NCBI GenBank assembly: GCA_016926755.1
Contig: JAFGNZ010000309.1
Coordinates: 1-35,526, forward strand
Source: Myxococcaceae bacterium
Lineage (GTDB): Bacteria > Myxococcota > Myxococcia > Myxococcales > Myxococcaceae
Direction of reading: 5' to 3'
Length of the DNA stretch: 35,526 nt
Position numbers and translations under genes: made by a program. Positions 8,819-31,263 of this stretch are shown here, in pieces (position 1 is the first letter of the stretch; each line of letters begins with the position of its first letter). The notes beneath the pieces are model-generated. The model did no database searches. It worked only from the letters and a program-made list of their open reading frames with translations, and had not been told where the DNA came from.

Positions 8819-9688
8819 CTACTGGGTGCGCACCACGCCCACGTCCGCGGTGCCTACCAGCAGGGCGCTCCCCAGGAAGAGGTTCGTCGTCTCGGGAGAG
8901 CCCAGGCGCACGGACTGGAAGATGACCAGGTACGTCTGCCCGGGGTCGGGGAAGGCCGTGCCGGGGATGGTGACGCGCTCCTGCCGCCACTCCGTCGGGA
9001 GGGCGACGAGCTTGAGGAAGTCGAGCGGCGTCTTGGGGGCGTTCGAGTAGGTGGGCTCGCCCTGCTCGCCGTTGTCGCTCACGGGAACGACGGTGACGAA
9101 GCCCAGGGTGCGGTCCTGGTTGGCCGGCGGAGGGTCCCGGTTGAAGGAGAGCTCCGTGTTGGCGGGCATGCGCCGGATGACCTCGGCCGGGTGGAGCTCG
9201 TCGATTCGCTCCTGGACGGGCGCGTCCTTCACCACGCCCACGAACCGCTCGCCCCCCCGCTCCGCGATGAAGCTGTAGGTGGCGCCGCTCTGGTACTCCA
9301 GGGCCTCGTCGCTGTTGCTGGAGCGGCTGTAGGCGCCGGCGCCATCGCTGGTCAGGCTCACCTTCTGGGCGCCCTGCCTCTCCAGGGAGACGGTGGCGCC
9401 GGTCAGCCCCTCCGGGGCGGAGTTCTCGCCCTCGCGCGTGCCCAGGAAGACGAAGGCCACCGTCTGGCCGGGGATGGTGATGGAGGACTGGCCCCCATCC
9501 GCCTGGACGCCGGCGTCCAGGCCCGCGGCGGCCTCCGGCGAGAAGGAGACGTCCGGGGTGGACAGCAGCGTGCCCACCATCACCGTCTCCGCGGAGATCT
9601 GGTCAACCGTCTTTCCCAGGTCGCACGCCAGGGGAGCAAGGAGACAGCCCGCGAGGGCCGACAGCAGCAAGAGGTGTTTCATCGACAT
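8819..9688 (-). CDS. Hypothetical lipoprotein
   Basis: A 289-residue exported protein of unknown function. A short hydrophobic N-terminus (MSMKHLLLLSALAGCLLAPL) contains a lipobox-like LAGC with Cys15; a second Cys at 22 (LAPLAC) is less typical. The mature part is beta-rich: VPGQ/IPGQTVAFVFLGTREG, TVSLERQGAQKVSLTSDGAG and YSFIAERGGERFVGVVKDAP. The last of these resembles a carboxypeptidase-regulatory or Ig-like sandwich. Two starts are possible, 9688 and 9682; AAGGA lies 4 bp from the first and 10 bp from the second. The gene is divergent from the CHASE2 cyclase gene, 88 bp apart, and they may share control. Confidence 0.8.
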   Translation of the reverse strand: MSMKHLLLLSALAGCLLAPLACDLGKTVDQISAETVMVGTLLSTPDVSFSPEAAAGLDAGVQADGGQSSITIPGQTVAFVFLGTREGENSAPEGLTGATVSLERQGAQKVSLTSDGAGAYSRSSNSDEALEYQSGATYSFIAERGGERFVGVVKDAPVQERIDELHPAEVIRRMPANTELSFNRDPPPANQDRTLGFVTVVPVSDNGEQGEPTYSNAPKTPLDFLKLVALPTEWRQERVTIPGTAFPDPGQTYLVIFQSVRLGSPETTNLFLGSALLVGTADVGVVRTQ

Positions 9689-9776: not shown

Positions 9777-12374
9777 GTGCAAAACCCTCCCGTCCAATCC
9801 GCTGGCCGTCGCTTCCTCAAGCGGCTGGGGTTTGCCCTCCTGCAGACCGCCATCTTCGGCACCCTGATCGGGGGGATTGTCTCCGTCCGCATGCCGCGCA
9901 CACAGCTCGAGACGGAGGGCGCGCCCCAGACGGTGCTGGCCCACCTGGTCGCGCTGATCGAGCGCCCGGAGCGCATCACCTACGATGTCCGCGTCCGCGC
10001 GCTGGGAGACTCCCTCCAGCGCCAGCGCCAGAAGGAGCCGAGATCGCAGGAGCAGGTGGTGGTGGTGACGGTGGACGACGACACGCTCGGCAATGCCCGC
10101 CAGGGCAATCACCAGGGCCTGGCCTCCTACCCGTGGGCTCGCGAGGCGATCGGCGGGCTCACGCGCCGGCTGGTGGCGGAGGGCTCCTCCGTCGTCGTGC
10201 TCGACATGCTCTTTCCGGAGCTGAGCCCGCGCGTGTGCTCCACCCAGGAGCCCGGAGGCGGGGAGGCGTCCGATGACGGCGCGTTCCACAGGCTGCTGAG
10301 TGAGACGCCGGGCCAGTCCGCCCTGGCCTTCTCCTGGAGCGTGCCGCGCGCCATTCCGCCCGCGCCCCAGATCTGGCCGTACCGCGTGCGGGTGGGGGCC
10401 CACGCCGGGCAGGCCGAGGCGCACGCCCAGGCCCTGAAGGTGCTCTCCACGCAGCGGGCCGCCTTCCTCATCCCCGCGGAGGACCAGGTGGAGGTGTGGG
10501 CCGGCGTGGAGGACGAGCGCGAAGGGCAGATCTTCAGCACGCGGTTCGGCGCCAGCCAGGGGGTGGTGCGCGAGCGTCGCGCCTCGGACGACACCTCGCG
10601 CGTCACCGCGTTGGATCTCTTCGTCTCCCTGGCGCGGGTGGAGGTGGAGGGGCTGGAGCCCTCCCGGCTGCTGCAGGTGCGCACGCTCCAGCACCCCGTG
10701 GTGCAGCTGCTGGGCTCCCAGAGCCTCTATGGCGCGGCGACCGGCTTCCCGGACTCGGACGGCGTCGTCCGGGGGATGCTCCACCTGATCAGCTACACCC
10801 CGCGCGAGGGAGAGCACCACGTGCTGCCCTCGTTGCCGCTGGCCGCGGCCATGAAGCAGGCCGGCACGCGGAAGCTGCGCTACGCGGACGGGCGGCTCCA
10901 CGTGGGAGACGCGTACTCCTTCCCCATGGACGAGTCGGGCTACAGCCTGACGCGCTGGGAGACGGCGGAGCCGGGGCGCACGGCGGGGGCCTCGGTGTTC
11001 CGCACCATCCGGGCGTGGAACGTCCTGCTCAACCACTTCGACGCCAACGAGGGCCGCCCGCCGCGCGCGGATCATGATCTCGATGGGCGCGCCGTGATCC
11101 TCACCAACACCTCCACCTACGCCACGGACTACAAGCCCACGCCCATCGGCAAGGCGACGCCCGGCGGCGCCGTCCTCGCGCAGTCGCTGGAGAACATCCT
11201 CCTGTCCCAGGGCATCACCCGCGCGCCTTCGAGGATGGATCTCGGCCTGACGATGGCGATGGCCTTCCTGGGCGCCGCCGTCGCGCTCACCTTCAGCCGC
11301 AGCTTCCGGTCCGGCCTGGGCGCGGTCCTCTACTTCTCCAGCATGGCGCTGCTGGGCGTGGGCTACTTCCTGGTGGCCCGCTACCTCTTCGTGGAGGAGC
11401 AGCTCTGGATCGCCGTGGCGGGCCCGCTGTTCGCCATGGTGTTCACCTTCCTCTTCACCACCATCTACTCGGTGCGCACGGAGCAGGAGATCCGCGACTT
11501 CGTCAACCACGCGCTCGGCCGCTACGTGAGCCCGGAGGTGGCGCGGCTCGTCACGCGCGATCTCACCCTGCTGGTGCGCCCCGAGCGCCGGCCGCTGACG
11601 GTGTTCTTCTCCGACATCGCCGGCTTCACCCGCCTCTCGGAGCAGATGGAGCCGGAGCGGCTCGTCCAGTTCCTCAACGAGTACCTCACCGAGGTGACGC
11701 TGGCCGTGCGCTCCTCGGGCGGCCAGGTGGACAAGTACATCGGCGACACGGTGATGGCCTTCTGGGGCGCGCCGGTGCGCTCGGATCGCCACGCGCACCT
11801 GGCCTGCGAGGCCGCCCTGAAGATGCGCGCGCTGCTGCAGGAGCGCCAGCCCGTCTGGGAGAAGAAGTACGGCCACCGCATCCAGTTCCGCTCCGGCATC
11901 AACAGCGGTGATGTCGTGGTGGGCGACATGGGCACCGAGCTGAAGTCCAACTACACGGTGTTCGGGGACGCGGTGGGCGTGGCCTCGTGGCTGGAGGGCT
12001 GCAACAAGTTCTACGGCACCGTGGTGCTGGCGGGGGAGCGCACGGCCCAGCTCGCGAGCGACGCGTACGTCTTCCGCGAGGTGGATCGGGTGCTGCTGCG
12101 CAACAAGCCGGCGCCCATCCGCCTCCATGAGCTGCTCGGGCGCCATGGGGAGATCTCCCCGCGCATGCAGGAGCAGCTCGCCCTGTACGAGCAGGCGTTG
12201 ACTGCCTATCACCAGCGCCGCTTCGACGAGGCGCTCGCGTTGTTCGAGCGCTGCTCCTCGGAGTATCAGGACACGGTGTCGGCCGTGTATGCGGGCCGGT
12301 GCCGCCGCTTCCTGGTCACCGCCCCGGCGGACGACTGGGATGGTGTCTACGAGGTGGGGAGGAGCGAGCCGTGA
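9777..12374 (+). CDS. CHASE2 adenylate/guanylate cyclase-like membrane protein, altered active site
   Basis: An 865-residue membrane sensor. One N-terminal membrane helix (about 17-38) precedes a CHASE2-type extracytoplasmic domain (about 40-475; VVVTVDDDTLG, SYPWAREAIGGL, SVVVLDMLFPE). Three further membrane helices (about 490-570) lead into a class III cyclase domain (about 600-780). Metal-binding D613 (FFSDIAGFT) and D657 (YIGDTVMAFWG) and adenine-contacting K653 are present. The transition-state Asn and Arg of the usual V-N-x-A-x-R segment are Gly734 and Trp738 (GDAVGVASWLEG), so normal cyclase activity is doubtful. A helical tail resembling a single TPR follows. The GTG at 9777 has no clear ribosome site. 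The stop overlaps the M48 gene start (GTGA), indicating coupling. It could still be a regulatory pseudo-enzyme or nucleotide sensor. Confidence 0.92.
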   Translation: MQNPPVQSAGRRFLKRLGFALLQTAIFGTLIGGIVSVRMPRTQLETEGAPQTVLAHLVALIERPERITYDVRVRALGDSLQRQRQKEPRSQEQVVVVTVDDDTLGNARQGNHQGLASYPWAREAIGGLTRRLVAEGSSVVVLDMLFPELSPRVCSTQEPGGGEASDDGAFHRLLSETPGQSALAFSWSVPRAIPPAPQIWPYRVRVGAHAGQAEAHAQALKVLSTQRAAFLIPAEDQVEVWAGVEDEREGQIFSTRFGASQGVVRERRASDDTSRVTALDLFVSLARVEVEGLEPSRLLQVRTLQHPVVQLLGSQSLYGAATGFPDSDGVVRGMLHLISYTPREGEHHVLPSLPLAAAMKQAGTRKLRYADGRLHVGDAYSFPMDESGYSLTRWETAEPGRTAGASVFRTIRAWNVLLNHFDANEGRPPRADHDLDGRAVILTNTSTYATDYKPTPIGKATPGGAVLAQSLENILLSQGITRAPSRMDLGLTMAMAFLGAAVALTFSRSFRSGLGAVLYFSSMALLGVGYFLVARYLFVEEQLWIAVAGPLFAMVFTFLFTTIYSVRTEQEIRDFVNHALGRYVSPEVARLVTRDLTLLVRPERRPLTVFFSDIAGFTRLSEQMEPERLVQFLNEYLTEVTLAVRSSGGQVDKYIGDTVMAFWGAPVRSDRHAHLACEAALKMRALLQERQPVWEKKYGHRIQFRSGINSGDVVVGDMGTELKSNYTVFGDAVGVASWLEGCNKFYGTVVLAGERTAQLASDAYVFREVDRVLLRNKPAPIRLHELLGRHGEISPRMQEQLALYEQALTAYHQRRFDEALALFERCSSEYQDTVSAVYAGRCRRFLVTAPADDWDGVYEVGRSEP

Positions 12375-13465
12375 GTCCGCCACGCATCGGCCCAGGAGTG
12401 TTGCTCGCGAGCCTGCTCACGGCCTGCCAGGCCACGGACAGGCCCGCCCTCGTGGCCCAGGTGGAGCGCAAGGTGGAGGCGCAGCGGCGCCAGCTCAACC
12501 GCGATCTGGCGGGGCCCAAGGCGCGGCTGGGCGGGCAGGTGTCCGCGCTCATGGGCTGCTCCCTGGAGCGGCGCCAGGCGTATGAGCTGGATCCGGAGCA
12601 GGAGCACACCCTGGGCCGCGCGGTGGCGGAGCGCCAGCTGGCCACGCTGGGGGTGGAGCCGCTGCCGCCCACGGATCCCGTCGCGCGCTACGTGGATCAC
12701 GTGGGGCAGTACCTCGCGCTGGTCGCGGAGGCGGTGGGCAACGCCAGCGCGCCGGACCGCACGGAGGGGCCCGAGCGGCTCCTCGGGAACCGCCCCTGGC
12801 CGCTGGAGGGCTACCGCTTCCTGGTGCTGCCCCTGGGGGAGCCTCGCGCCTCCGGCGGTCCGGGCGGCACGGTGATGATCTCCACGGGCTTCCTGCTGGG
12901 GCTCGAGAGCGAGGAGGAGCTGGCGGCGGTGCTGGCGCACGAGGTGGCCCACGTGCAGCGGGGCCACGGCGTGGAGGCGCTCAAGGACTTCCTCTGCCAC
13001 CAGGAGGCGCGCAGGCAGCCGCTGGCGGCGTTCGGCAACGGCCTCACGGCCCAGCTGTTCCAGCGCCGTGATGGCGCTCAGCGAGCGCAGGGGCAGCGCG
13101 TGCTCGCGGAGCTGTCCACCGGCGAGGCGAAGGAGGCGGCCAACCTCTATCGCGAGGAGCTCCCCTGGGACTTCGAGCTGGAGGCGGACCGCATCAGCGT
13201 CCGGCTCCTGCTGGCGGCGGGGTATGACGCGCGCGTGCTCACCGGCCTGCTGCGCCGCACCGCCCAGGAGGCTCCGGCGAGGCATGCCTGGCTCCGCATG
13301 CACCCGCCGTCCTCGGAGCGGCTGGAGACCGTGGGGCAGCAGCTCGAGGGGCTCGGCGCGGCGCAGGCCTGGCCTTCCTCGGAGGCGGTGGCCCAGCGCA
13401 CCAGGCGCTTCCAGGACGCGCTGGCGCCGCTGAGAGTGCTCTCCATCTCACAGTCCGCGCGCTGA
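12371..13465 (+). CDS. M48-family zinc metallopeptidase, lipoprotein
   Basis: A 364-residue predicted outer- or inner-membrane-anchored periplasmic protease. The N-terminus MSPPRIGPGVLLASLLTACQ carries a lipobox (LTAC, Cys19). The HExxH zinc motif is H190-E191-V-A-H194 in LAHEVAHVQRGHG. The third ligand lies in FELEADRISVRLL (E271, with D273), followed by AGYDARVLTGLLRR and HPPSSERLE, all classic for M48/BepA-Loi P-type peptidases. Such enzymes degrade misassembled outer-membrane or periplasmic proteins. The GTG start overlaps the cyclase-like gene stop by 4 bp, which links proteolysis to the CHASE2 sensor genetically. An inverted repeat follows at 13480. Confidence 0.92.
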   Translation: MSPPRIGPGVLLASLLTACQATDRPALVAQVERKVEAQRRQLNRDLAGPKARLGGQVSALMGCSLERRQAYELDPEQEHTLGRAVAERQLATLGVEPLPPTDPVARYVDHVGQYLALVAEAVGNASAPDRTEGPERLLGNRPWPLEGYRFLVLPLGEPRASGGPGGTVMISTGFLLGLESEEELAAVLAHEVAHVQRGHGVEALKDFLCHQEARRQPLAAFGNGLTAQLFQRRDGAQRAQGQRVLAELSTGEAKEAANLYREELPWDFELEADRISVRLLLAAGYDARVLTGLLRRTAQEAPARHAWLRMHPPSSERLETVGQQLEGLGAAQAWPSSEAVAQRTRRFQDALAPLRVLSISQSAR

Positions 13466-20829: not shown

Positions 20830-22296
20830 TCAGCCCTTGAGCACGGCCAGGGGGACCAGCCGCGCCACCTTCCAGGCGATGCCCGCGGTGGCCACCGCGT
20901 CCACCACGCGATCTACATCCTTGTAGGCCGAGGGGGCCTCCTCCGCCAGCTCCGCGTTCGAGGGGCACTCCACGTGGATGCCTCGGGCCTGCAGCTCCTT
21001 GCGCAGCTCCGCGCCGACCACCTGCCGCTTGGCCGCGGCGCGGCTGAGCTGCCGGCCCGCGCCATGGCAGGCGCTGCTGAAAGAGATGTCCGCGGACTGG
21101 CTCCGGCCCACCAGCACGAAGGAGGCCGTGCCCATGCTCCCGGGGATGAAGACCGGCTGCCCGATGTCCCGGTAGGCGGCGGGCAGCTCCGGACTGCCCG
21201 GGCCGAACGCCCGCGTCGCTCCCTTGCGGTGGACACACAGCTGGCGGCCTCCGTACGTCTCCACCTTGGCGATGTTGTGCGCCACGTCGTAGAGGACTCG
21301 GGGCCAGGCCTCGGCGCGAGGGCCGAGCATCCGGCGGAACACCTCGCGGACCCGGTGGGTGAGCACCTGCCGGTTGGACCAGGCGAAGTTGGCCGCGGCG
21401 CACATGGCCGCGTAGTACTCCCGCCCCTCCTGGGAGGAGAAGGGCGCGCAGGCGAGCTGCCGGTCCACCAGCCGGATCCCCTCCCGGGCCAGCGCCCGAT
21501 CCATCTGCCGCACGTAATCGGTGCACACCTGGTGTCCCAGCCCACGAGAGCCCGTGTGGATGAGGAGGGTGAGCTGCCCCTCGAACAGTCCGAGCGTCGA
21601 GGCGAGCGCCGCGTCGTCGATCCGCTCCACCCGCTGCAGCTCGATGAAGTGGTTGCCGCCGCCCAGCGTGCCGAGCTGATCGTGCCCTCGCTCCCTGGCG
21701 CGGACGGTGACCTGGGCTGCGTCGGCCCCGGGGAGGTGCCCGCCCGCCTCGATGAAGGAGAGGTCCTCCTCGGAGCCCAGGCCCAGGCCGCGCACGAGGT
21801 AGGGGACGCCCTCGTCGAGGACCCGGTCGAGCTCGTCCGGGCTCAGGGCCAGCCGGCCGTGGCGCCCATAGCCGGTGGGAATGCTCCGGGCCAGCTCGTG
21901 CGCCAGCGCCGGGAGGAGGCCCTTCACCTCTTCATGGAGGAGCCCGGTGGTGAGCAGCCTCACGCCGCAGTTGATGTCGAAGCCGATCCCGCCGGGGGAG
22001 ATGACGCCGTCGGGCAGCAGGGTGCCCGCCACCCCGCCCACGGGGAAGCCGTAGCCCTCGTGCATGTCCGGCATGCCGATGGCGAAGCCATGGATCCCCG
22101 GCAGCGTCGTCACGTTGACGAGCTGGATCAAGCTCCGGTCGCGGGACATCTGCCGGAGCAGCTCCTCGTCGGCCACGATCCGCGCCGGCACACGCATGTC
22201 CGCGCGGAAGCCGGTATCGATCTCGTAGAGCGCAGGGCCGATGTGGCGCAGGACGGGCGCGGGCTGCTGCGGGACTTCGACGTGGGTCTCCATCAT
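20830..22296 (-). CDS. rtcB: RtcB-type RNA ligase
   Basis: A 488-residue Mn/GTP-dependent ligase joining RNA 2',3'-cyclic phosphate or 3'-phosphate ends to 5'-OH ends, used in RNA repair or tRNA splicing. All metal ligands are visible: D107 and C110 (GFDINCGVR), H216 (LGGGNHFIE), H247 (LIHTGSRG), H340 (YDVAHNIAK), plus the guanylylated His at H411 (SACHGAGR). HRKGATRAFGPG near 356 and MPDMHEGYGFPVGG near 75 are further family marks. Length matches typical bacterial and archaeal RtcB. It follows archease by 30 bp on the same strand, the usual activator pair. No RtcR-type sigma54 regulator or rtcA is in the window. Confidence 0.96.
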   Translation of the reverse strand: MMETHVEVPQQPAPVLRHIGPALYEIDTGFRADMRVPARIVADEELLRQMSRDRSLIQLVNVTTLPGIHGFAIGMPDMHEGYGFPVGGVAGTLLPDGVISPGGIGFDINCGVRLLTTGLLHEEVKGLLPALAHELARSIPTGYGRHGRLALSPDELDRVLDEGVPYLVRGLGLGSEEDLSFIEAGGHLPGADAAQVTVRARERGHDQLGTLGGGNHFIELQRVERIDDAALASTLGLFEGQLTLLIHTGSRGLGHQVCTDYVRQMDRALAREGIRLVDRQLACAPFSSQEGREYYAAMCAAANFAWSNRQVLTHRVREVFRRMLGPRAEAWPRVLYDVAHNIAKVETYGGRQLCVHRKGATRAFGPGSPELPAAYRDIGQPVFIPGSMGTASFVLVGRSQSADISFSSACHGAGRQLSRAAAKRQVVGAELRKELQARGIHVECPSNAELAEEAPSAYKDVDRVVDAVATAGIAWKVARLVPLAVLKG

Positions 22297-22326
22297 CGCC
22301 TCGGAGCGGCCAGGGGCCGCGGTGGA

Positions 22327-22746
22327 TCAGACATCGAGCACGACGGTGGCGGTGAAGCCGTCTTCGTGCTCGCGGATCTCCAGCCCGTGGAAGGTGGCGG
22401 CCTTCACCGCGGTCTTGAGCACCGAGGGCGTGAAGCCGCGGATCCGCGCGTGCAGCGTCCGGTCGGAGAGCTCATCCACCTCGAAGTCGGTGTAGACGCG
22501 CTTCCAGGCGTCCGAGCGGGAGATGAGCTCGTTGAGCCAGTCGACCAGCAGCGCCTCGGTGTCCGCGGCCTCGAGGGTGACGTGCTCCACCTCCGCGTCA
22601 GGCGGAGGCTCCGAGGGCTGCTCGCCGAGCATGACGTCGGCCAGCGCGTACCCGGCCTCCTCGAAGAGCTCCGGCAGATCGGTGCCATTGATGCGCACCT
22701 GGACCTCCGCCGTGTGTGGCTCGAACTGATGGGTGCCCGTCTCCAC
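22327..22746 (-). CDS. Archease, activator of RtcB
   Basis: A 139-residue protein of the archease family, which speeds GMP loading of RtcB and allows multiple turnover. The N-terminal FEPHTAEVQVRINGTDLPEL matches the canonical DHTADV(I)G-x-R-x-x-G-x-x-L-E-E block, with Glu in place of the second Asp. LLVDWLNELISRSD (about 67-80) and the C-terminal KAATFHGLEI (about 115-124; canonical KAATYHGLEI) are also present. The GTG start at 22746 has GGGAGG five bases upstream. It precedes rtcB by 30 bp; archease-rtcB pairing is widespread and supports both calls. Confidence 0.93.
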   Translation of the reverse strand: METGTHQFEPHTAEVQVRINGTDLPELFEEAGYALADVMLGEQPSEPPPDAEVEHVTLEAADTEALLVDWLNELISRSDAWKRVYTDFEVDELSDRTLHARIRGFTPSVLKTAVKAATFHGLEIREHEDGFTATVVLDV

Positions 22747-22849: not shown

Positions 22850-24124
22850 TCAGGCGACGGCGGAGGTGCCGCCGGGCAGGACCGAGTCCCGGGGGTGGGG
22901 GATGAAGAGCGCCACGGGCTGGCTCTTGCCCGGCACGTTGGCGGCGGGGGCCTCGCTCCAGAGGAAGGCATCACCGGCCTGCTCGTGGGTGCTGCGCGAG
23001 ACCAGGACCGGCGTCCCCACCGTCTTGGTGAGGCGTTCGATGCGGCTGGCCAGGTTCACCGTGTCCCCGATGGCGGTGTACTCCAGGCGCCGCGAGGAGG
23101 AGCCGATGTTGCCCAGCACCACCGGGCCGGTGTGCACGCCCACGCCCATGCGCAGGCCCGGCTCGCCGCGGGCTTCGCGCTCCGCGTTGACGGCCTCCAG
23201 CTCGCGCACCATGTCCAGCGCGCACTGCACGCCTCGGCGGGCGTGCTGCGCGTCCGCGATGGGGGCGCCGAAGTACACCATCAGCGCGTCCCCGATGAAC
23301 TTGTCCAGCGTGCCGCCGTGGCGGAACACCACCTCCACCATGCGGCCGTAGTACTCGTTGAGGATGGCCACCACCTGCTGCGGCGGCAGGCGCTCGCTCA
23401 GGGCGGTGAAGTCCCGGATGTCCGCGAAGAGCATCGTCACCTCGCGCAGCTCCGGGAACGTCTTCGAGATGGCCAGATCCTGCAGGCGCTCGGCCACCGC
23501 CGGAGAGAAGTACCGGCCGAGCCGGGCGCGCTTGAGCTCCTCGCGCGTCACCGCCGTCAACAGCGCGCGGATGCGCAGCAGCAGGTGCACGGCGCCCGCC
23601 GCGCTCGCCGACAGCACGACCACCGCGGCGAGCTGCGCCCCGATGGTGATGCCGGCCTGCGCCTGCAGCCGCACCTCCGCGAGCGCCGCCGTCGCCGTCA
23701 CCACCACCACCGCCTTGCGGCTCAGCGAGAGGGCGGACAGCAGGATCAGGCACACGTAGATGCCCACGGTGAAGCCGGCCACGCCTCCCGGCGACGGAGA
23801 CAGGGGCAGGGCCAGCGTCTGGAGCCAGAAGATCGCCGGCACGTCCACCAGCGCCAGCGTCAGGCCCGCCTGGCGCGCCAGCCACTGGGAGCGGAGGACC
23901 CCCACCAGCACCAGGGCGGTGAGGGCCCAGTACGCGGCGAACGGGGTGGAGTAGATGGCCCAGTCCACCAGCCCGCGCAGGTGCCCCAGGTAGAGGGTGA
24001 CGCCGAAGATGGCGGAGACGGCCAGGAAGCGCACCCCCGCGAGACGCACGGCGTTGCGGGCGCGCTCCGCGTCGAGCGCCCGCGCCATGCTCTGCTCGGT
24101 GCTGGGCCCTGCGGTTTCCTGCAT
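22850..24124 (-). CDS. Membrane-bound class III adenylate/guanylate cyclase
   Basis: A 424-residue cyclase with six predicted N-terminal membrane helices (about 28-185) forming a membrane sensor region, a short linker ([17 protein letters not shown]) and a class III catalytic domain (about 225-400). All catalytic residues are present: metal-binding D235 (LFADIRDFT) and D279 ([13 protein letters not shown]), base-contacting K275 and T350, and transition-state N357 and R361 ([12 protein letters not shown]). It should therefore make cAMP (the Lys/Thr pair fits ATP). It lies 103 bp upstream of archease on the same strand and might be co-transcribed with archease-rtcB, though a weak hairpin (GGGCA 22759-22763 with TGCCC 22794-22798) lies between. 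A dyad-symmetric site is upstream at 24151. Confidence 0.93.
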
Positions 24125-26763: not shown

Positions 26764-27343
26764 CCGGGGGCTCTTCCGGGAGCACCGGTGATACGGTCAG
26801 CGACCGCAGCGAGCCGTCGTGACCGAAGTCGAGGCGAAGCTCGACCCCATTCGTTTCGTAGCTATAGACGCCATCGAGATAGTCGCGCTTGAAGGCGGCC
26901 CCCTTCTTGTCGCGGTTGATCTGCTGGAGGGTCGAGCCCTTGTGGATGAGCGCTCCATCCACCACCAGGCGACCGCTGAAGGTCTGCCGCGGCCAGAAGT
27001 CGGGCTCCGAGTCGGTGAGTGGTGAATGCATCGTCCGGCCGAGGAGCACCACGAAGGAGGACGGCCGGGAGTCCATGGGCCTGTTGTGGTACAGGAAGAC
27101 ACCCAGCTCATCCCAGACGGAGATGTCCCGGACGTTCCGGCTCCGAGGGCCCAGCGCCTCCTGCCAGCGCTCGGGCTGCGCTTCCCACACGAGCGGCCGC
27201 CCGTTGTAGCGCACCGTGGAGCCCTCCACGGTGATGACCTGACGCGTGTCGGGCGCAGGCAATGGCGAGGTGGGGGGCTGGGCCGTGCAGACTCCCGCGA
27301 GGAGCGCCGAGACCACCAGCAGCGGGAGGGGGAGGTGTCTCAT
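26729..27343 (-). CDS. Small exported protein coupled to the HET-C-like gene
   Basis: A 204-residue protein. MRHLPLPLLVVSALLAGVCT is a Sec signal peptide, probably cut after CTA. The mature part has a patterned beta-rich core: EGSTVRYNGRPLVWEAQPER, W-x-x-x-LGPRSRNV, ISVWDELGVFLYHNRP, then FSGRLVVDGALIHKGSTLQQ and LRLDFGHDGSLRSLTVSPV. The NG-x-x-L ... LG-x-x-SR ... WD-x-x-GV-x-x-Y order recalls a family of small uncharacterised bacterial exported proteins (DUF7738-like, from memory). The ATG shares one base with the stop of the 890-residue HET-C-like gene (TGATG), so translation is coupled. An immunity or accessory role for that protein is inference from coupling and export only. Confidence 0.82.
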   Translation of the reverse strand: MRHLPLPLLVVSALLAGVCTAQPPTSPLPAPDTRQVITVEGSTVRYNGRPLVWEAQPERWQEALGPRSRNVRDISVWDELGVFLYHNRPMDSRPSSFVVLLGRTMHSPLTDSEPDFWPRQTFSGRLVVDGALIHKGSTLQQINRDKKGAAFKRDYLDGVYSYETNGVELRLDFGHDGSLRSLTVSPVLPEEPPATSGGRRGGPA

Positions 27344-30015
27344 CAGTCGATCCCCATGAGTCGATTGGCCCGCTCCACCAGCTCCTGCAGCTCCTTGGAG
27401 CGCTCCTTCGTCCAGTCCGCGATCCAGCTGCGAGAGCCGAGGCGCTTGATGGCCTCCCCATGACTGGGGATCCAGGCGCGGATCGTCTCCAGGATCCACG
27501 CGGTGCTCCCACCGGCGACGATCTGGGAGGGGTGGACGAAGTATTGGGCGGCCGTGGCGACCACCTCCTCAGCGGTGCGCTGCTTCCTCCAGGCTTGCTG
27601 GACCGCCTTGCCCACGTCCAGGACCGCCCCCGCAGCCAGCTTCGCCGCGAGCGCGTGCAGGGGGTGGTCATCGTGATCCTTGGCGAGCTGGCTGTGGGTG
27701 GGATCGGTGCTCGAAGGATCCTCCACGAACATCGTCTGGGCATCATCGATGGTGTTCGCGCTGGCGCGGACAGCGAGCCCAATGCCACTCATGAAGAGAT
27801 CCACGACCTTGCCGATGGTTTTGCACATCAGGGTGGCGAGCCGGGGATACTCCTTCTCGAGCTCGTGGATCGTTGACTGCATGCTCTTCATCAGCGCGTG
27901 GGTGTCGTGGTAGCCAAAGTCCTTCAAGAGGATGAGGATGATGAGCGAGGCGGCGGTGGGCTCCCCCGGGATACAGGTGTCCTCCTTTTGAAGGTTCTCG
28001 CCGATGACGAGGAGGATGCTGGCGGCGGTGTCCAGGGATCCGAACTTGCCGGTGGTGATGGGGAGCTCCTTCGCGGGGGTGCTCCTCCCGCGTGGCGCTG
28101 GGACCCAGGGCTCGACCCATTTCCCCAGGCAGATCAGCGCCACCTCCACGAAGTTGGTGTGGCTGAAGAAGTCCTCCAGCGTGTGCAGGGCACTGCCCAG
28201 GAGACGATAGCCCTCGGCCTTCGGCCCTTCCTTGATGGCCAGCTTGAGCTGCTCCGTCATGTAGTGGAGGGCAGTGTAAGACGCCTCGGTGCCCACCCCG
28301 CCAGTCGTGCCCGGGAGCTCGAGGAGGCCCGGCTGGTCCTGGCTGGTGAAGATGTAGTTGCGGCCGTCGGCGGTGCGCTTCGTGCAACCGACCTTCGTGC
28401 GCAGCTGGTGGTTGATCTCGGCGGGCACGGTGGTGCCGAAGTTGTGCAGCGCCAATTCCTGCCAGGTGAGCCCGTTGGCGCGGGCGATGCCGTCGAGCGT
28501 TTCCCCGTCCTTCACCCGGTGTTTTCGGGCAGGCTGGCCCTTCTTCGGGGAGCTGGTGCGGATGAAGCGCTTCATGCGCGTGGAGGGATCCACCGTCAGC
28601 GCTTCGGCGGAAGGGGGGCCATTGAACTTCTTGTCGATGTGCTGGCCGCCCGTCATCCCGCTCGGATTGTCGATGTGCTCCTCACTGCGATAGACGCCGA
28701 GTTTGTCGGTCGTCACCCTGAAGGTGGAGGCATCTCCGAACTTCAATCGGGCCAGCACGTCCAGGATGGAGGTGAGGCCCTTCTTGGTGGGAAGGAAGGG
28801 CGGGGGCCAGGTTTCCTCCTTGCGGATGGTCTTGGGATCGATGGCCTGCGAGTAGTCGCGCAGCCAGTTGCCGAAGTACACGCGCTTGCGCGCCTGGGCA
28901 TCGAAGTCAGCCTTCTCGAGAGCATCCTCGATGGACTCATGCCCGTAGGAGCCCGCGTGTCCCGCGCCGCGTCCGGCGCCGAAGAACTCGAGAGCACCTT
29001 CCCGCGCGTCGAAGTCCAGCTCATGGCGAGGGAGAAAGCGCTCCACCGCCTGGGTCAGCCCCGCGTACTCGACCTCCAGCGGCACCTCTCCCCTGGGCGT
29101 CACGTACCTGGCGAACTCGCAGCGGACCTGCTTCCTCGTCCACCCGAGGTTCACGAGCGCGTAGGCCATCCTCGCGCCCTCGTCGAGCGGGGCATCGCCG
29201 CCGACGCTGGAGTAGTGCGTCCGCAGCAGGTTGTCGACGTGGTGGCCGTACTCTTCGATGAGGGCGACGAGCAGTTTCCACGCTTCGTTGTTGTCCCCAC
29301 GGGCACTGAGCACCAGCCCGCGCGTGACGCGGATGACGCGCTCCTTTCGATCATAGGCGGCGTCGTGGCCGTGCAGCCCTCCTTCGACGATGCGAATCCC
29401 GGGCTCGGGCAGGCTGCCCTTGAGGAGCTCCGCGCGCAGGCGCACGTATGCACTCTCGGGGATATCCGAGCCGAAGAGCATCTTGAGCCACATCAGGAAC
29501 TCAGCCGAGTTCATGGCGATGGCGAGCTCACGGAATTGATCCCTCGCCAGGGTGCTGATCAGCTTCTCGTTCTCGACGTCCCAGTTCGTGCTGCCCGCGA
29601 ATGTACGGAGGGCCGTGTTCACGGGCCCCTGCTGCTGAGGGCTTCCGGCGGGAGGCAGGGGATCCGCGGTACGCAGGAGCACCAGCGCACCGCTCTGGAA
29701 GGCCTCCTCCAGACGGCGCTCGATGAGCTCCTGCTGGCGGGGATCCCGCCGGATCGACAGATCGAGCCGACTTCCCGTCACGGCCTCGTACAGCTCTTCG
29801 AGGGTTCCGCGAGTTAGCAGGGAGGCGCGCCGCGGCCCCAGGGAGGCCTGGACCATCCGCCAGGACACGCGGGCCTTGGCTTCCTCCTCCCGCAGGTCGC
29901 GCCCCCTCACGACCTGGAACTCCTCGGAGGCCCCGCGGAGCCGCCACGTTGCCCGGGAGGTGGGGGGGACTCGTCGCGGGGGGCTCCCCGGGGGCACTCG
30001 TGGGTTGGCGCTCAT
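27343..30015 (-). CDS. Large HET-C domain protein with LysM-like segment, candidate toxin/effector
   Basis: An 890-residue protein. Residues 1-250 are of unknown fold, starting with a basic Pro/Arg-rich tail. EEYGHHVD (254-261) followed by DAPLDEGARMAYAL resembles a zinc-type E-x-G-H-x-x-D helix. From about 355, GHESIEDALEKADFD and YFGNWLRDYSQAID (G382-D387) match the signature of the HET-C family known from fungal heterokaryon incompatibility. LEDFFSHTNFVEVAL (613-627) is the family's second block (E-D-F-x-x-H-x-N). A LysM-like segment (HRVKDGETLDGIARANGLTW, from 499) sits inside the HET-C region and may bind glycan. No signal peptide is seen, so export would need a dedicated system. The ATG at 30015 has no clear ribosome site. 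It is coupled to the small exported protein downstream. Confidence 0.85.
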   Translation of the reverse strand: MSANPRVPPGSPPRRVPPTSRATWRLRGASEEFQVVRGRDLREEEAKARVSWRMVQASLGPRRASLLTRGTLEELYEAVTGSRLDLSIRRDPRQQELIERRLEEAFQSGALVLLRTADPLPPAGSPQQQGPVNTALRTFAGSTNWDVENEKLISTLARDQFRELAIAMNSAEFLMWLKMLFGSDIPESAYVRLRAELLKGSLPEPGIRIVEGGLHGHDAAYDRKERVIRVTRGLVLSARGDNNEAWKLLVALIEEYGHHVDNLLRTHYSSVGGDAPLDEGARMAYALVNLGWTRKQVRCEFARYVTPRGEVPLEVEYAGLTQAVERFLPRHELDFDAREGALEFFGAGRGAGHAGSYGHESIEDALEKADFDAQARKRVYFGNWLRDYSQAIDPKTIRKEETWPPPFLPTKKGLTSILDVLARLKFGDASTFRVTTDKLGVYRSEEHIDNPSGMTGGQHIDKKFNGPPSAEALTVDPSTRMKRFIRTSSPKKGQPARKHRVKDGETLDGIARANGLTWQELALHNFGTTVPAEINHQLRTKVGCTKRTADGRNYIFTSQDQPGLLELPGTTGGVGTEASYTALHYMTEQLKLAIKEGPKAEGYRLLGSALHTLEDFFSHTNFVEVALICLGKWVEPWVPAPRGRSTPAKELPITTGKFGSLDTAASILLVIGENLQKEDTCIPGEPTAASLIILILLKDFGYHDTHALMKSMQSTIHELEKEYPRLATLMCKTIGKVVDLFMSGIGLAVRASANTIDDAQTMFVEDPSSTDPTHSQLAKDHDDHPLHALAAKLAAGAVLDVGKAVQQAWRKQRTAEEVVATAAQYFVHPSQIVAGGSTAWILETIRAWIPSHGEAIKRLGSRSWIADWTKERSKELQELVERANRLMGID

Positions 30016-30261
30016 CGCGCCCGCGAGCTTAGTCCCACGGATGCGCTGTCGAGAAGGTGAGAGGGCACCCTCAAGCGGGAGCAAGTCCAGTTGGCGGTCA
30101 TCGTGGAGCGCGCAGAGGGGGGCCGTGCCCCGGACTGGCCTCCTGACGCCAGCAGGCGAGCACGAATGCCCACCGCTGAACACGGCGGAGCCCTCCGAGA
30201 CAGTGCTGTCGGCTCCTACCTGAGGACCACCTTGACCCATGTCTCGTCTCGGAGGGGTTTC

Positions 30262-31263
30262 ATGGCAAACCGACGTCAGCTCCCGCACCGAATCCTGCCC
30301 CTGATCCTCGTAGCGCTCTCGGCGAACGCCTTCGCCTCCGTGCAAGTCGCGGGGACCTTCGAAGCCGTGCGCTCATGCGATGCATTCAAGTCATTTCAGA
30401 AAGGCACCAACCCCGGAAACATCCGGCTGGAACCGGGGCAGACCTATACCGTCGAGGAGCTCAACGAGCGGGGTGGAGACTGGGTACGGGTCAGCGTCCC
30501 GGCAGTCCGTGAGCCCTTGCGATGGGTGCCCAAGGAATGCGGCGTCACCGAGTTCACGGAGAAGGACTCTTCAGGCACTATCGAGGGCGCGGCTCGGGCC
30601 GGCAGATGCAACACCGCCAATACCTACGACAGCAACGTCCTCGCGATGAGCTGGCAGCCCGGCTTCTGCGAACACGCCAGGTACTCCGGGAGGAAGCCGG
30701 AGTGTGATGCGCTCGAGGACGGCGAGCTCGTCATCTCGCACCTGACGATTCATGGCCTGTGGCCCAACAAGCAGTCCTGCGGGACCTCGTACGGGAACTG
30801 CCGGGGGAGTGCGCTCAGCCTCTCCGAGGACACGCTCGCGGAGGTGGCGCCGTGGATGCCGAACCTGATCTACGACACCGAGCTCGCCTCGCATGAGTGG
30901 CGCAAGCATGGCTCCTGTCAGTCCCGGGATGACGACGAGTACTTCCGCGCCGCGAAGCTCGTCACCGAGGAGATCGATCGCTCCGTGATCGGTGACTACA
31001 TCAAGTCCAAGATCGGCAAGGAGATGAGCGTGAGCGACTTGTTTGCCCAGGTGAGGCGCGAGCTCGGCCCCGATGTGGAGCAGAAGATTCAACTGCTATG
31101 CGCCGGCGGCAAATACCTGCAGGAGATCCGGCTCAGCCTGCCGCGGGACGTCGTGCCTGGCCCGGATATCGCCAGGATGGTTGCGGGGGCCCCGAGGATG
31201 CGCTCGCGAACGAACAAATGCGACTCCGACACGATCTACATCGAGCGCTCCGGCCAGGAGTGA
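30262..31263 (+). CDS. Secreted RNase T2 family ribonuclease
   Basis: A 333-residue secreted ribonuclease cutting RNA through 2',3'-cyclic phosphates. A signal peptide (ILPLILVALSANAFA) ends near residue 25. Residues 28-95 form an added N-terminal beta domain, possibly SH3-like (GQTYTVEELNERGGDWVRVS). The RNase T2 domain follows with both active-site blocks: CAS1 HLTIHGLWPN (H164) and CAS2 ASHEWRKHGSC (H211, E212, K215, H216). Many Cys (116, 136, 148, 173, 180, 219) would form disulfides in the periplasm or outside. The ATG at 30262 follows GGAGGGG by 4 bp. The gene is divergent from the HET-C-like gene, 246 bp apart, and convergent with the LytTR gene. Nutrient scavenging or attack on prey RNA are both plausible. 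Confidence 0.93.
   Translation: MANRRQLPHRILPLILVALSANAFASVQVAGTFEAVRSCDAFKSFQKGTNPGNIRLEPGQTYTVEELNERGGDWVRVSVPAVREPLRWVPKECGVTEFTEKDSSGTIEGAARAGRCNTANTYDSNVLAMSWQPGFCEHARYSGRKPECDALEDGELVISHLTIHGLWPNKQSCGTSYGNCRGSALSLSEDTLAEVAPWMPNLIYDTELASHEWRKHGSCQSRDDDEYFRAAKLVTEEIDRSVIGDYIKSKIGKEMSVSDLFAQVRRELGPDVEQKIQLLCAGGKYLQEIRLSLPRDVVPGPDIARMVAGAPRMRSRTNKCDSDTIYIERSGQE

Follow-up and report, generated by a model that had tools for sequence, protein, structure and literature searches.

Results

The CHASE2-cyclase gene and its surroundings

The window, by which we mean the whole stretch of 35,526 nucleotides analysed here, is the entire contig C10 and part of a 9.6 Mb genome. It encodes a CHASE2-class III cyclase-like protein, flanked by genes for a predicted lipoprotein and an M48-family metalloprotease, and a second class III cyclase (Table 1). 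Profile searches with the CHASE2-cyclase protein gave 98.8 bits for the CHASE2 domain (PF05226, cut-off 26.3) and 79.5 bits for the class III cyclase superfamily (PF00211, cut-off 21.9). Helices are predicted by the structure model at residues 486-511, 513-540 and 548-579, and again in the C-terminal region (795-812, 816-830 and 833-847), where D853-E859 of the closing motif are invariant in alignment A1. Judged from its sequence, the product is a membrane-bound CHASE2 receptor, with ligand sensing predicted to take place in the envelope.

Confidence in the model is good for the cyclase domain (residues 600-790 mostly above pLDDT 80, mostly 80-95) and for the C-terminal helical hairpin, and low for CHASE2 (10-sequence alignment). 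All top matches of the predicted domain in Foldseek were class III cyclases, led by CyaC of Spirulina (Arthrospira) platensis (PDB 1wc1, with ATP analogues; E 1e-16) and followed by Cya2 and CyaB; in the model, the cyclase fold is kept. CyaC and CyaB of Pseudomonas aeruginosa (PDB 3r5g, E 1e-15) are class IIIb adenylyl cyclases that share with the window protein the fold, at ~30% identity, the two metal-binding Asp residues and the purine-specifying Lys/Thr pair. They differ from it in their sensor domains and in having Asn and Arg where the window protein has Gly and Trp.

Elsewhere in the window, genes for the RNA ligase RtcB and archease (20830-22746, minus strand) adjoin the second cyclase, with genes for the 49-kDa and 30-kDa subunits of Complex I beyond them. 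A 1000-aa ORF (27343-30345, minus strand) contains a region resembling Het-C (PF07217, E 3e-51), besides weak matches to LysM and VWA7_N.

Table 1 Features of the CHASE2-cyclase locus and of the second cyclase in the window.
Feature	Position	Strand	Basis or remark
Predicted lipoprotein, 289 aa, N-terminus MSMKHLLLLSALAGCLLAPLAC-D	8819..9688	-	Divergent; starts 88 bp apart from cyclase gene
CHASE2-class III cyclase-like protein, 865 aa, GTG start	9777..12374	+	Translation; orthologues align from identical start position
CHASE2 extracytoplasmic sensor domain, residues 61-494	9957..11258	+	Pfam PF05226, E 5e-28
Predicted transmembrane helices, residues ~495-575	11259..11501	+	Structure model, low to moderate confidence
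Class III cyclase-like catalytic domain, residues 606-777	11592..12107	+	Pfam PF00211 (Guanylate_cyc), E 3e-22; model; Foldseek
Asp613, first metal ligand, kept	11613..11615	+	Residue check
Lys653 (purine-specifying) and Asp657 (second metal ligand), kept	11733..11747	+	Residue check
Gly734 (GGC) replacing transition-state Asn	11976..11978	+	Residue check, alignment
Trp738 (TGG) replacing transition-state Arg	11988..11990	+	Residue check, alignment
C-terminal helical hairpin and D-W-D-G-V-Y motif, residues 791-865	12147..12371	+	Model, alignment
M48-family metalloprotease, lipoprotein-like	12371..13465	+	Pfam PF01435; GTG start overlaps cyclase stop (GTGA)
Second class III cyclase, canonical six residues (N357, R361)	22850..24124	-	Profile search, residue check

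The substituted residues are shared by three species

The original prediction for this DNA held that the CHASE2 protein keeps its metal-binding Asp residues and Lys653, has lost both transition-state residues, and shares the window with a second cyclase that retains Asn357 and Arg361. Translation agrees on each point: Asp613, Lys653 and Asp657 are intact at exactly the numbering claimed, Asn is replaced by Gly734 and Arg by Trp738, and N357 and R361 are present in the second cyclase. Thr727, which with Lys653 makes up the purine-specifying pair, is also intact. The protein thus has the two metal-binding Asp residues and the purine-specifying pair of a competent cyclase but neither the transition-state Asn nor the Arg, and both replacements are conserved in three species.

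The numbering of D613, K653, D657, T727, G734 and W738 is exact, and the stretch YTVFGDAVGVASW reads Y-T-V-F-G-D-A-V-G-V-A-S-W. The sequence YTVFGDAVGVASWLEGCNKF was also found in two other genomes, at 79-81% overall identity, one of them that of Hyalangium versicolor, the closest named relative (79% identity). The longer run N-Y-T-V-F-G-D-A-V-G-V-A-S-W-L-E-G-C-N-K-F is identical in three genomes of the genus, H. versicolor included. Since the identical stretch occurs in three genomes, the Gly/Trp substitution is real and fixed in the clade, and an error of sequencing, assembly or reading frame was rejected as its source.

Five less related cyclase-like proteins of the same genome are also altered at the six positions: L011 (contig C12, QSKAEQ), L013 (C98, EAETPW), L015 (C212, RRDTDR), L016 (C128, DKDTNW) and L017 (C177, RLDTRW). 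Trp stands at the Arg position in three of the five, which makes the Arg-to-Trp change of the window protein no isolated case.

Catalytic residues were lost repeatedly across the Myxococcaceae

A search at E <= 1e-150 returned one match each in 81 of 96 genomes of the family, and more orthologues were taken from the class. The main alignment comprised 80 family orthologues, mapped on a maximum-likelihood tree, and 17 additional sequences brought the set to 97. Most Myxococcaceae have the CHASE2-cyclase gene as one orthologous copy, and its reading frame is open in all family orthologues found except one.

At least one of the six active-site residues is changed in 90 of the 97 orthologues; all six are kept in 5/80 of the family alignment and 7/97 of the enlarged set, the latter belonging to genera g2, g5, g8 and g10 together with two deeper orthologues. 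Because the outgroup CHASE2 cyclases and the basal orthologues are canonical, the ancestor had Asn and Arg. Among the 97 orthologues, 7 separate clades have lost Asn734 (to Gly, Ala, Ser, Arg, Lys or Thr) and 5 have lost Arg738 (to Trp, Phe/Tyr, Lys or Ala). The count of Asn losses was the same with or without regain allowed (7 and 7; 6 and 6 for the smaller set, on its IQ-TREE tree). Many lineages keep the Arg and have only the Asn gone, a change that, judging by mammalian cyclase mutants, may lower their activity rather than abolish it. The metal-binding Asp pair is kept in 90/97 orthologues, with Asp657 invariant in the 80 family orthologues of the main alignment, and was lost twice: Asp613 became Ala in four species of the window's genus and Asp657 became Glu in genus g23. 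Three further orthologues (L096, L097 and L098, from genomes G081, G082 and G045) combine an alignment gap at the Lys653 position with loss of the Asn, leaving a doubly damaged site.

Within the window's own genus, the four Asp613Ala species keep Asn and Arg, three species carry Gly/Trp with both Asp residues kept, and the neighbouring genus g8 is canonical. In the orthologue alignment proposed with the original prediction, Gly/Trp is common to three Hyalangium-type species, but does not extend to the nearest genus. A recent local change is partly true for Gly/Trp, yet it was rejected as an account of the whole, as Asn loss recurs in 7 clades and is no local accident.

As controls, three other cyclase orthogroups were assembled from genomes of the same family, with 30 members each. 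All six residues were canonical in 30/30 orthologues of the second window cyclase, 29/30 of the CHASE2 cyclase of contig C67 and 30/30 of that of C258. Canonical sites were thus found in 89/90 control cyclases as against 7/97 focal orthologues, a difference far beyond chance. Since the controls stay canonical, residue loss is a property of the focal orthogroup, and a general habit of cyclases in these genomes was rejected.

The lipoprotein gene accompanies the cyclase gene almost throughout. A homologue lies adjacent to the cyclase gene and divergent from it in 72/80 loci, at identities down to ~40%; the lipoprotein is single copy in 85/85 genomes of the class that hold one, including one genome of another family, where it again stands beside the CHASE2 orthologue. 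Profile searches with the 289-aa protein gave no Pfam or NCBIfam match. The M48 gene follows the cyclase gene only in the Gly/Trp trio and in genera g2 and g8, and an operon with the protease as a functional unit was rejected as a general arrangement.

The cyclase domain remains under purifying selection

Pairwise comparison of the cyclase domain gave dN/dS values of 0.16 in the Gly/Trp trio (three pairs only), 0.11 in the Asp613Ala clade, 0.21 in g6 (Corallococcus-like, genus guessed), 0.29 in g19 (Myxococcus-like, genus guessed) and 0.36 in the Lys/Phe-Tyr clade. For the Gly/Trp trio, this puts the cyclase domain below the CHASE2 domain of the protein itself (0.35) and no higher than canonical cyclases from these species (0.18-0.32); in the Asp613Ala clade the cyclase domain likewise falls below the CHASE2 domain. 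Between genera, dN of the focal cyclase domain is ~1.4-1.7 times that of the control cyclases, for which partial relaxation could be the cause. Taken together, low dN/dS within clades and more replacement changes between genera indicate that the domain is maintained while the catalytic constraint is lifted. A conserved gene, lost catalytic residues and purifying selection, the combination that marks a pseudoenzyme, are all found in this orthogroup; inactivity itself is a prediction.

Five positions are unique to the Gly/Trp trio: Thr658, Phe729, Trp738, Cys742 and Phe745. In the model, Gly734, Trp738, Cys742 and Phe745 would share one face of the helix predicted at 731-746, which suggests a coordinated remodelling of that face.

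Discussion

We consider it probable, at roughly two chances in three, that the gene encodes a CHASE2 receptor whose cyclase domain has turned into a pseudo-cyclase and which would signal without cAMP. Different lineages have lost different residues, in sister species even a metal-binding Asp, which argues that the reaction is dispensable. Loss of Asp613 should abolish catalysis, by analogy with the D41A and D71A variants of Xanthomonas campestris XC_0250, which are dead (PMC3770947). The CHASE2 domain would sense the state of the envelope, perhaps via the divergently encoded lipoprotein, and the signal would act on the cytoplasmic pseudo-cyclase by altering its dimerisation or its nucleotide-bound state, with output through protein contacts instead of cAMP. 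In the Gly/Trp species, Trp738 would fill the position of the phosphate-stabilising Arg and block turnover, while binding of a metal-nucleotide complex may persist; given the retained metal Asp residues, the domain perhaps binds ATP or a cyclic nucleotide. The wider proposal, that the orthogroup gave up cyclic-nucleotide synthesis in at least seven lineages and was kept as a metal-nucleotide-binding switch coupled to the divergent lipoprotein, is a tentative one that we hold to fall somewhat short of probable. The canonical orthologues of g2, g5, g8 and g10 and the two deeper ones may still be enzymes.

A signalling pseudo-cyclase had been one of the two readings in the original prediction, and it is strongly supported on evolutionary grounds by the repeated independent loss of different residues in one retained orthologue and by purifying selection on the domain; what tempers it is that replaced residues do not automatically make a cyclase inactive. 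XC_0250 has Leu157 and Ala161 at the transition-state positions, and the purified protein is an active guanylate cyclase (PMC3770947), so that loss of Asn and Arg alone is no proof of inactivity. The window protein resembles it in that both transition-state residues are replaced and the metal Asp residues kept, and differs in that XC_0250 joins TPR repeats to the cyclase and has Ala at the substrate-specifying position, whereas Gly/Trp stand here beside an adenylyl-type Lys/Thr pair. An active enzyme of slow or altered chemistry, relying on residues other than Asn and Arg, would accord with this precedent, with the retention of the metal Asp residues, Lys653 and Thr727 among the Gly/Trp species, and with the purifying selection seen in the domain. 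We nevertheless regard it as rather unlikely: the replacements vary by lineage (G, A, S, K, R, T for Asn; W, F, Y, K, A for Arg), unlike a fixed alternative mechanism, Asp613 is lost in sister species and Asp657 has become Glu in another genus, and residues 653 and 727 are still of the adenylyl type, unlike those of XC_0250. The lineage-specific choice of lost residues and the faster evolution of the domain between genera would also be expected if the cyclase half were a vestige under weak constraint, in a gene kept for its CHASE2 and transmembrane parts. Such plain decay is very improbable in view of within-clade dN/dS values of 0.11-0.36, lower than those of the CHASE2 domain in the Gly/Trp and Asp613Ala clades, of a frame open in nearly every family orthologue, and of the near-invariance of Asp657, numerous glycines and stretches of the C-terminal motif.

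The second reading originally proposed, a protein that works only as a heterodimer, was weakened. Active-site residues are split over unlike halves in the alpha and beta subunits of soluble guanylate cyclase and in C1 and C2 of mammalian adenylyl cyclase (PMC3591389), and the window protein could similarly supply a metal/Lys/Thr half-site to the Asn/Arg of a canonical cyclase. The Gly/Trp species, with one half-site intact and the other lost, have the pattern expected of such a half, and candidate partners are at hand: the second window cyclase lies ~8-13 kb from the CHASE2 gene in most genomes, and another CHASE2 cyclase ~20-50 kb from it in several. Unlike in these two systems, however, no partner with complementary residues was found to occur consistently with it. 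No counterpart of the second window cyclase turned up at E <= 1e-80 in G006, G065, G075, G076 and G078 (100% complete), several of them near-complete genomes and all with an altered orthologue, and obligate pairing with it was rejected on this failure of co-occurrence. None of the four Asp613Ala genomes has the L003-type CHASE2 cyclase (E <= 1e-180), nor do most g6 and g19 genomes, and the L002-type is missing at threshold in the complete genome G003. None of the 18 cyclase-domain loci of the window's genome has the complementary defect (Asp lost, Asn/Arg kept), and in some orthologues both half-sites are impaired (Asn lost together with K653T or deletion of the Lys). An obligate heterodimer half is on this evidence distinctly unlikely, as is obligate pairing with any of the three cyclases tested; a facultative heterodimer is possible.

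The preferred reading, a pseudo-cyclase receptor, can be set beside the CHASE2 cyclases CyaD1, CyaD2 and CyaK of Sinorhizobium meliloti, which likewise join a membrane CHASE2 part to a class III cyclase and whose sensing depends on the outer-membrane protein NsrA (PMC13001267). They differ in making cAMP and in having a beta-barrel as envelope partner, whereas here the predicted lipoprotein is a conserved neighbour and a candidate partner only. A CHASE2 protein changed by quorum signals, WP_011554259.1 (PMC9257966), is a candidate for the Myxococcus orthologue.

Among kinases, non-catalytic relatives of the enzymes have been studied extensively, and they are also known among GGDEF/EAL proteins. 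Bacterial class III pseudo-cyclases that serve as receptors have hardly been reported; in the open literature, with most subscription journals outside its scope, we found neither one of these nor an orthogroup of this kind. If the wider proposal is true, the lipoprotein-coupled switch would be a kind of receptor new to the CHASE2 cyclases. Members of the orthogroup annotated as adenylate/guanylate cyclase are probably mis-annotated as enzymes. The family of the genetically tractable myxobacteria, which are predators living in soil, holds here a replicated natural experiment, one receptor that is canonical in a few genera and variously substituted in many, and the orthogroup allows a direct test of the role that a CHASE2 'cyclase' has when cAMP synthesis is impossible.
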